Positions 54,301-57,300 of a DNA stretch of 64,000 nt are shown here, piece after piece. The position numbers were made by a program, and so were the translations under genes. The stretch spans positions 434,001 to 498,000 of the forward strand of contig JAPNXP010000007.1 in assembly GCA_028753945.1 (NCBI GenBank), given 5' to 3'. Numbering within the stretch: position 1 is the stretch's first letter; each line of letters starts with the position of its first letter. This DNA comes from Hexactinellida sp. DTS-2022 (taxonomy: Eukaryota; Porifera; Hexactinellida). Under the pieces are notes generated by a model. That model was not told the DNA's origin, did not search any database, and saw nothing but the letters and a program-made list of their open reading frames with translations.

Positions 54301-57300
54301 CTCGTCGTGATAAAGGCCCAGCTTTCAATTTAGCCATTGTAGCTAGTCGCGTGACGTCATTACCTGTTATTAGTGTTGTAAAATTTCCGAAAATTTTGTG
54401 TTCAATGGAAATTGCCGAAAATTTCCGGAAATTTCTGGAAAGATTACAAATTTCAAATTATGCTTAGGAACTTTATTTGAAATTGCCAAAATCTTTGTGC
54501 TACTTAAGTTGGACTGTCATGAGGGAAAATAACAAGCGCACAGTAACAACTCTACATTATATATAGATATGGTTTATCAAAAATAAAAAACTAGGTACGT
54601 ATATATAATAATTTTCCATGTAAAGTTTCCGGAAATTTCCTAGGAAATTTTCCGACCTTACAACACTACCTGTTATATACTCGTTAGTAGCTCGGTAGAC
54701 CAATGAGCGTAAAGCCTCAATTTCAGTTTGTAGTTCACAGAGTTTGAACTGTACAACTTGATTGGATAGGATTGACCTACCAAATGCTTTTCTTTGTTCG
54801 CAATATTCAGCTGTTTCTGAGATTATAAATTCCATTGCTTTTAATATGTTTGCAGATGCCCATAATCTCTCCTCTTGAAATTGTAACATTTGGTAATAAA
54901 ACCCTTTTCCACGCTCCCCTATAACATTTGATTGTGGAACTATTACGTCATCGAAATGTAATAAAGCTGTATCAGAAGAATTATTGCCAATTTTAACAAT
55001 TTTCTTTTCAACGTGAACACCTTTTAAGTTCAAAGGTAGACAAATAAGAGATTTATTTTTATACGGGTTTTTTTCTTCCAATTCAGTAATAGCTAAACAG
55101 CACATCCAATCAGCCTGTGTGCCACTTGTTATCCACATTTTCCCACCGGAAATGATAAAATCGTCACCTTTTTCCCTCGCGGTTGTTTTAATACCGGAAA
55201 CATCTGACCCTGCTCCTGGCTCACTGATACCAACACAGGCTACAAAATCCCCTCGAATTGTAGGCTCAAGAAATTCCTTTTTCAACTTATCGCTCCCGTG
55301 TTTAGCTAGTGCAGGTGTGCTCATGTCAGTTTGTACGCCAATGGCCATTGGGACACCACCATTTCGTATATTCCCGAGTGTCTCTGCAATAGCTATGGAA
55401 AACGAATAATCTAATCCCATTCCACCGTTTTCCACTGGTTTTGTGACTCCTAATAATCCATGTTCGCCTAGGTTCTTAAAAACTTTTTTTGCAGGAAAAA
55501 TCCCATTTTTTTCCCATTCTTGTACATATGGGTTAATGTCTTTTTCAATTATTTTGTTTAACATGTCACTCATTTGGTGATGTTCTTCCGTATAAAACCC
55601 AGGCGCTGGTGAAAGCGAAGTTGTATAGGGACACATTTTACCATATTTTAACACCTTTTTATTTGTGATTAATCGCTTTGTAGTAGCAGATAGTCTTGAC
55701 AACATTGTTGCTAAATTGTGTATAAACAAAAAATATAAATTTAGGCATATTATCACGAAATTTTAGGAAAAAATCAACAAATTAGAATGGTGTTCGCCTA
55801 TTAGCAATATTGCTCTATTAGCAAGTTATTTTCAGTCCCCAAGCGAGCATTTAATTTTAATTCAGTTCCTTTAATTTTAATAGCAATCGCCTATTAGCAA
55901 GCAAATTTAGTGCAATATTCGACTTGCTATTATGCGAACATTATTGTAATATGTACATAAAATTACGTATGTATTATATAATTAGTATAGCATTTACCCG
56001 AATTATTAATTATTTGCCAAAAAGGTCAAAAACTGTTAATCACATCAGAATCTCCCCCATAATCCTTATTATTAATTATCCCTAATATATCCCCAGTTAC
56101 CATAGAGGTAGTATGGCATGTCTCATTAGGTACAAGAGGCGGAGGAGAGCTACTTCACTGCACTGCGCATGTGCAACACGCATGCAGACAGTCTCAACAA
56201 CCTCGCCAACATAAAGCGAGAACAAGGCTCCATAGACCAAGCCATGACTCTCTATCTGAGAGCCCTGGAGGTGTATCCTGATTTCGCCGCTGCTCACTCT
56301 AACCTGGCTAGCATTCTGCAGATGCAGGGAAAGCTGCATGAAGCACTGCAGCACTATAAGGAAGCTATTAGGTAGGTAGTACATTAGTACAGTCGAAACC
56401 GGTTTATTCTAACTATTAGTAATGCAATTTTTGTAAGAAATTCCAACTATATTGTATTTTTCATCGGTTTTTTCTTACTATTTTTATCTGAAAAGAAATG
56501 GTTAGAAAAAACCGGTTTAAACTGTAAGTTTTTCGTATGTACACTGTACGGTACAGTACATCTTATATAAGAATATACAGGATATAAGAACACTATGTTG
56601 GAAAACAGTTTTCATATAACCTGTATAATTTATGCCGGTTAAAAGAACACTATGCAGTTACCGACAATGTACTTATATGAGTAGTACTAGAGCATTAGTC
56701 TACAAGAAAGTTGTATTAACTTGAGTCTACTGTACGATTGTATGAACAATAACATTACTGTACGATTGTATTAACAATAACATTACTGTACGATTGTATT
56801 AACAAGAACATTACTGTACAATTGTATTAACAATAACATTACTGTACGATTGTATTAACAAGAACACTACTGTACAATTGTATTAACAATAACATTACTG
56901 TACAATTGTATTAACAAGAACATTACTGTACGATTGTATTAACAATAACACTACTGTACGATTGTATTAACAATAACATTACTGTACAATTGTATTAACA
57001 AGAACATTACTGTACGATTGTATTAACAAGAACATTACTGTACAATTGTATTAACAATAACATTACTGTACAATTGTATTAACAAGAACATTACTGTACG
57101 ATTGTATTAACAATAACATTACTGTACGATTGTATTAACAATAACATTACTGTACGATTGTATTAACAAGAACACTACTGTACAATTGTATTAACAAGAA
57201 CATTACTGTACGATTGTATTAACAATAACATTACTGTACGATTGTATTAACAAGAACACTACTGTACGATTGTATTAACAAGAACATTACTGTACGATTG

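Follow-up and report, generated by a model that had tools for sequence, protein, structure and literature searches.

The origin of new introns is an old question, and clean cases of intron gain in animals that can be read to the base are, to our knowledge, few. At a locus in the glass sponge Hexactinellida sp. DTS-2022 (assembly GCA_028753945.1, contig JAPNXP010000007.1), the transposable element, its target duplication, the splice sites, and the protein are all readable to the base. The question raised by this locus, which lies in the 64,000-nucleotide stretch of DNA analyzed (the window), is whether the intron of an acyl-CoA dehydrogenase gene was born from one inserted element, and whether that element belongs to a family that makes introns repeatedly. 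It is likely that a hAT MITE hit a single coding exon, duplicated a target ending in AGG, and is now spliced out, as a chance gain at a proto-splice site kept by selection, with no specialized intron-maker involved. The analysis covers one assembly and one haplotype.

The host gene encodes an ACAD6-like acyl-CoA dehydrogenase and is nested, on the opposite strand, in an intron of OGT (53743..56129, plus strand, placed by alignment to a human guide protein). Exon 1 (54670..55705, minus strand; 1036 bp from the ATG) was delimited by sequence anatomy, Pfam, and alignment, and exon 2 (54131..54363, minus strand; 233 bp with the stop) by sequence anatomy, alignment, and open frames. Spliced together, they give a frame of 422 codons, with its ATG at 55705 and its stop at 54131, which needs no second intron and thus bears out the first-pass annotation, made from the letters of this DNA, in its view of the interruption as the only intron of the gene. 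Three acyl-CoA dehydrogenase domains in the protein exceed Pfam cut-offs. The nearest named glass-sponge relative is the "acyl-CoA dehydrogenase 6-like" protein of Oopsacas minuta (83% identical along the full length), and two other proteins are closer (90 and 88% identical); on this one gene, the host is most likely a glass sponge. Alignment with seven relatives crosses the splice junction without a gap, as expected if the restored protein is typical of its family. When the genome was searched with the protein, 16 matches were obtained. Outside the gene, identity is at best 29% across most of the length, with one match of 38% in a stretch of about 134 residues, so the search revealed no second ACAD6-like gene.

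The interruption consists of a 298-bp element (54371..54668, minus strand), delimited by sequence anatomy, a genome DNA search, and aligned copies, which begins TAGTGTTGTAA and finishes TTACAACACTA, with terminal inverted repeats that match at 11/11 positions. It is flanked by two copies of CCTGTTAT, at 54363..54370 and 54669..54676 (8/8 identical). The first of these on the plus strand is the downstream copy on the gene strand and yields the acceptor AACAG/G, where the slash marks the splice junction; the second is the upstream copy, ATAACAGG on the gene strand, and its last G opens the donor GTAGTG. The coordinates and letters previously given for this anatomy (298-bp element, 11-bp inverted ends, exact 8-bp repeat, and 306-bp intron) are thus correct to the base. 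The element has the features of a MITE, being short (298 bp), multi-copy, and devoid of any internal frame of 90 aa or more, and its duplication, exact here, has the 8-bp length of hAT insertions. The pattern nTnnnnAn is typical of hAT targets. Both the 8-bp duplications and the targets of the family, which follow this pattern, agree with the earlier assignment to a hAT-type MITE.

Other copies of the element, on whose existence the earlier reading depended, are present in the genome, and the family is real: the exact end TAGTGTTGTAA has 301 matches vs. 109 for a reversed control. A DNA search with the element gave 54 match rows from the best 40 of 172 candidates, among which the best-scoring other copy is 86% identical. 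Four genome searches supplied 98 loci (8, 30, 30, and 30), which hold 30 copies with paired ends (at most two mismatches per end) and an 8-bp duplication (at most one mismatch); 22 of these duplications are exact and eight carry one mismatch. In the target table of 29 rows, from which one of the twin copies L083 and L084 was left out, T at position 2 and A at position 7 occur in 47 of 58 half-sites; the target of the present copy fits nTnnnnAn at one half-site and departs from it at the other. Judging from at least 150 matches to the hAT dimerization domain (the best 150 of 638 candidates were scored), hAT transposases exist in the genome; among these 150 matches and the end positions listed, none was tied to the ends of the element. 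The twins L083 and L084 (C3:4210338 and C3:4248610), which lie about 38 kb apart, share a target duplication (ATTCGCAC) as well as the flanking frame, and represent a segmental duplication. AGGTAGTGTTG was tried as a marker for further copies and rejected, with 81 matches vs. 56 in the reversed control; 28 of the 81 form a single tandem array at C6:225821-229784, mostly about 130 bp apart, which resembles a satellite unconnected with the element. A 1081-bp copy in L059 was likewise rejected as a coding element, all six of its frames being broken by stops.

The predicted intron (54364..54669, minus strand; 306 bp, phase 1, GT-AG), which rests on sequence anatomy and splice scores, has both boundaries near the ends of the element. 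On the minus strand it runs from GTAGTGTTGTAAGG to ACACTAATAACAG, between an upstream exon ending ATAACAG and a next exon starting GTAATG (junctions ATAACAG/GTAGTGTTGTAA...CACTAATAACAG/GTAATG). Kept in frame, the 306-bp insertion gives five stops; removed, it leaves one 422-aa frame. Splice scores were built from the 13 introns of OGT alone, one of which has a GC donor, as positioned by a human guide sequence; by these scores the donor exceeds those of 9 and the acceptor those of 12 of the 13 OGT introns (leave-one-out), and equally good scores are found in the window at 2.1% of 7850 GT sites and 1.1% of 7114 AG sites. The GT-AG boundaries are judged typical of the genome, by comparison with the 13 introns of this one gene. 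The in-register direct repeat across both splice junctions extends over 10 bases, vs. 2 to 7 in the OGT introns. The element is probably a MITE-derived intron that is spliced.

The proposed origin begins with a step that the sequence shows: a non-autonomous hAT MITE entered the single coding exon of the nested gene at ATAACAGG (gene strand), duplicating this target. The upstream target copy together with the first bases of the element gives the donor ACAG/GTAGTG, and the downstream copy the acceptor AACAG/G; both sites are found as the first-pass annotation had derived them from the target duplication. Because the target ends in AGG, and TA comes next in both the element and the exon, a single insertion would form both splice sites. 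The splice signal previously ascribed to the end of the element is in part correct: the element supplies the TA of GTA, but the duplicated target is the source of the donor G and of the acceptor AG. The spliceosome would remove the element with one copy of the duplication and so return the original mRNA to the base, which in our proposal is why the insertion was tolerated and kept; it would represent a single intron acquired by chance at a proto-splice site and surviving selection. That removal of the intron restores the pre-insertion sequence, as was also claimed, is true to the base, but this follows from the duplication itself and thus is not independent evidence of splicing.

MITEs often sit in introns, so that the element might have moved into, or taken the place of, an older intron at this position; L055 and L061, two other members of the family, do lie 22 and 18 bp, respectively, behind a GTGAGT donor-like site. 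We give this next to no chance for the present copy: once the element and one copy of the duplication are subtracted from the 306 bp, nothing is left of any earlier intron, and the proteins of relatives appear to come from uninterrupted frames. In these relatives, each ACAD6-like protein is a single full-length record, as expected where intron-blind frame calling meets an intronless gene. The control was the spliced OGT protein: of the 120 rows listed, not one came from "ena" or exceeded 79% identity; this outcome is in line with intron-blind calling in the relatives' records, but the control is weak, since no Oopsacas OGT is among those rows either. Relatives with 88–91% identical proteins seem to be without this insertion.

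An insertion into a formerly uninterrupted exon could also be deleterious, as a young or polymorphic allele whose element is spliced hardly or not at all, leaving the gene broken in this individual. Consistent with such an allele, the target duplication and the inverted ends are still perfect, and the predicted fold of the 306-bp intron is a long hairpin in which the inverted ends pair and base pairing takes up nearly all of donor positions +2 to +6; with the donor buried in this way, splicing may be partial and retention possible. However, the splice sites are strong, the frame is intact on both sides despite the 2–5% divergence of the element, the protein is not accelerated, and the genome is without another close copy of the gene, and we regard a broken gene as unlikely. 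The divergence was read from a consensus of 22 copies (23 of the 30 copies, of 260–345 bp, were aligned, and L056 was then dropped as misaligned), from which the present copy differs at 14 of 280 sites (5.0%), within the family range of 1.4–9.1%; the earlier description of the gain as "recent" is not supported by this distance. Six of the 14 changes are private (2.1%) and eight are common to one to three other copies, such that part of the 5% may predate the insertion. Under neutral decay of 2% or 5%, an open frame survived in 1.6% or 0.0% of 1000 runs when indels were assumed to be one-tenth as frequent as substitutions, and in 26% or 3.8% with substitutions only. Even if just the private 2.1% of changes arose in place, a reading frame out of use would rarely have survived; these runs are indicative only. 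The branch of the ACAD6-like protein (0.052) is longer than that of one of its two nearest relatives (0.041) and shorter than that of the other (0.085). Together, the divergence, the open frame, and the protein branch favor a working, spliced gene, short of proof.

A spliced insertion need not be a solitary event, and the first-pass annotation had called the element "a clear introner," i.e., a member of a genome-wide family that makes introns repeatedly. The family does have many copies, a minority of which, at 98 loci, was read with flanks, but of the 30 with a duplication the present one alone sits within a long open frame. At the present site the empty-site frame is 441 aa, with 79 aa on its shorter side, whereas the longest frames of the other 29 copies have at most 37 aa on the shorter side; the test covers 30 copies from 98 loci, and short exons would escape it. 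AGG stands directly before the exact inverted end at two places in 112 Mb, one of which is this site, in a search that would miss decayed ends; with up to two mismatches in the end there is no excess (1099 matches vs. 1294 in the control). Of the 58 half-sites, 4 have G at position 7 of the target, one of them from this copy, and the preference of the family for A at this position works against AGG. With only this one intron found, among 30 copies and two exact AGG-preceded ends genome-wide, against the four or more similar introns taken to define an introner family, we consider the introner reading very improbable. The element family is poorly suited to making introns, and this case is a lucky survivor.

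Three other sites were considered as possible introns or exon insertions and rejected. For L011, the other exact AGG-preceded end, the 3-kb locus yielded no further copy of the duplication adjoining an inverted end; there is one weak end-like match with three mismatches, and the 400 bp before the end has stops in three frames. L055 (C8:2856937) and L061 (C11:15047572), with frames of 146 and 132 aa, have the GTGAGT site before the element and a frame of only 6 and 14 aa behind it, and a Pfam search of their frames gave nothing above cut-off. These two copies probably lie just inside introns, and two such cases among 30 may be chance.

Maize Ds has reportedly been spliced out of a coding exon like an intron, in work attributed to Giroux et al. 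in 1994 and Dennis et al. in 1988, and these cases are said to be mutant alleles with RNA evidence. Unlike those alleles, the insertion described here is in a kept single-copy animal gene, with splicing predicted from the letters. Ds is described as a hAT element with 11-bp inverted ends and an 8-bp duplication (PMC3260210), and the present element is of the same type, with the same end and duplication lengths; by analogy, Ds is the closest precedent.

Transposon insertion at the proto-splice site AGGT is a described route of intron gain; the review by Yenerall and Zhou (2012; PMC3443670) lists no demonstration in vivo for it, and its table gives Oryza, Drosophila, Oikopleura, and Zea for this route but no sponge. 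As in that model as set out there, duplication of AGG(T) gives the donor AG/GT and the acceptor AG/G and leaves the coding sequence unchanged; unlike in it, the element itself contributes the T of the upstream donor as its first base, outside the duplication. The introner study (Gozashti et al., 2022; PMC9860276) retained families of at least four similar introns, reported introners in no animals or land plants other than two animal groups, and described, in Florenciella, families whose two splice sites both derive from the site of insertion. The present case resembles the introners described there in involving a non-autonomous DNA transposon with inverted ends and a target duplication, and, as in Florenciella, both splice sites derive from the target; it differs in that one such intron was found. 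Sponges or Porifera are not named in the main text of that study, and no report of intron gain from a hAT MITE in this lineage was found in the literature searched. Thus, the route of intron birth is already known, and the legible single case in this lineage is new.

A scan of insertion points shows how narrow this route may be. Targets ending in AGG occur at 19 of 1206 coding positions in ACAD6 and 28 of 1824 in OGT (about 1.5%). With the element in its present orientation, both splice sites are at least as strong as here at 2 of the 1206 positions (this site included) and 1 of the 1824; in the opposite orientation, the counts are 0/1206 and 1/1824. The measurable rule suggested is that few coding positions offer AGG-ending targets and that the preference of the element avoids them. 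Tentatively, an animal genome may owe an intron in a nested and otherwise single-exon gene to one hAT MITE, under a target preference that puts A where the acceptor needs G, such that only a rare off-consensus target would give a viable exon insertion and hence no introner would arise. If this is true, intron gain from hAT elements is limited by target choice, which can be tested over all genomes.

The genome of the glass sponge Aphrocallistes vastus is described as having many single-exon genes and 12.4% nested genes (PMC10282587). Other long single open frames in the window, at 15747-17132 (minus), 20192-21544 (plus), 41919-43187 (minus), and 43808-45067 (plus), of 461, 450, 422, and 419 aa, respectively, agree with many single-exon genes. 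The OGT intron at 52874-53146 (plus) has a GC-AG boundary (ATAG/GCAAGT), as placed by alignment to the guide, and a tandem array with a 58-bp unit, visible as repeated frames, occupies about 47511-48139 of the window.
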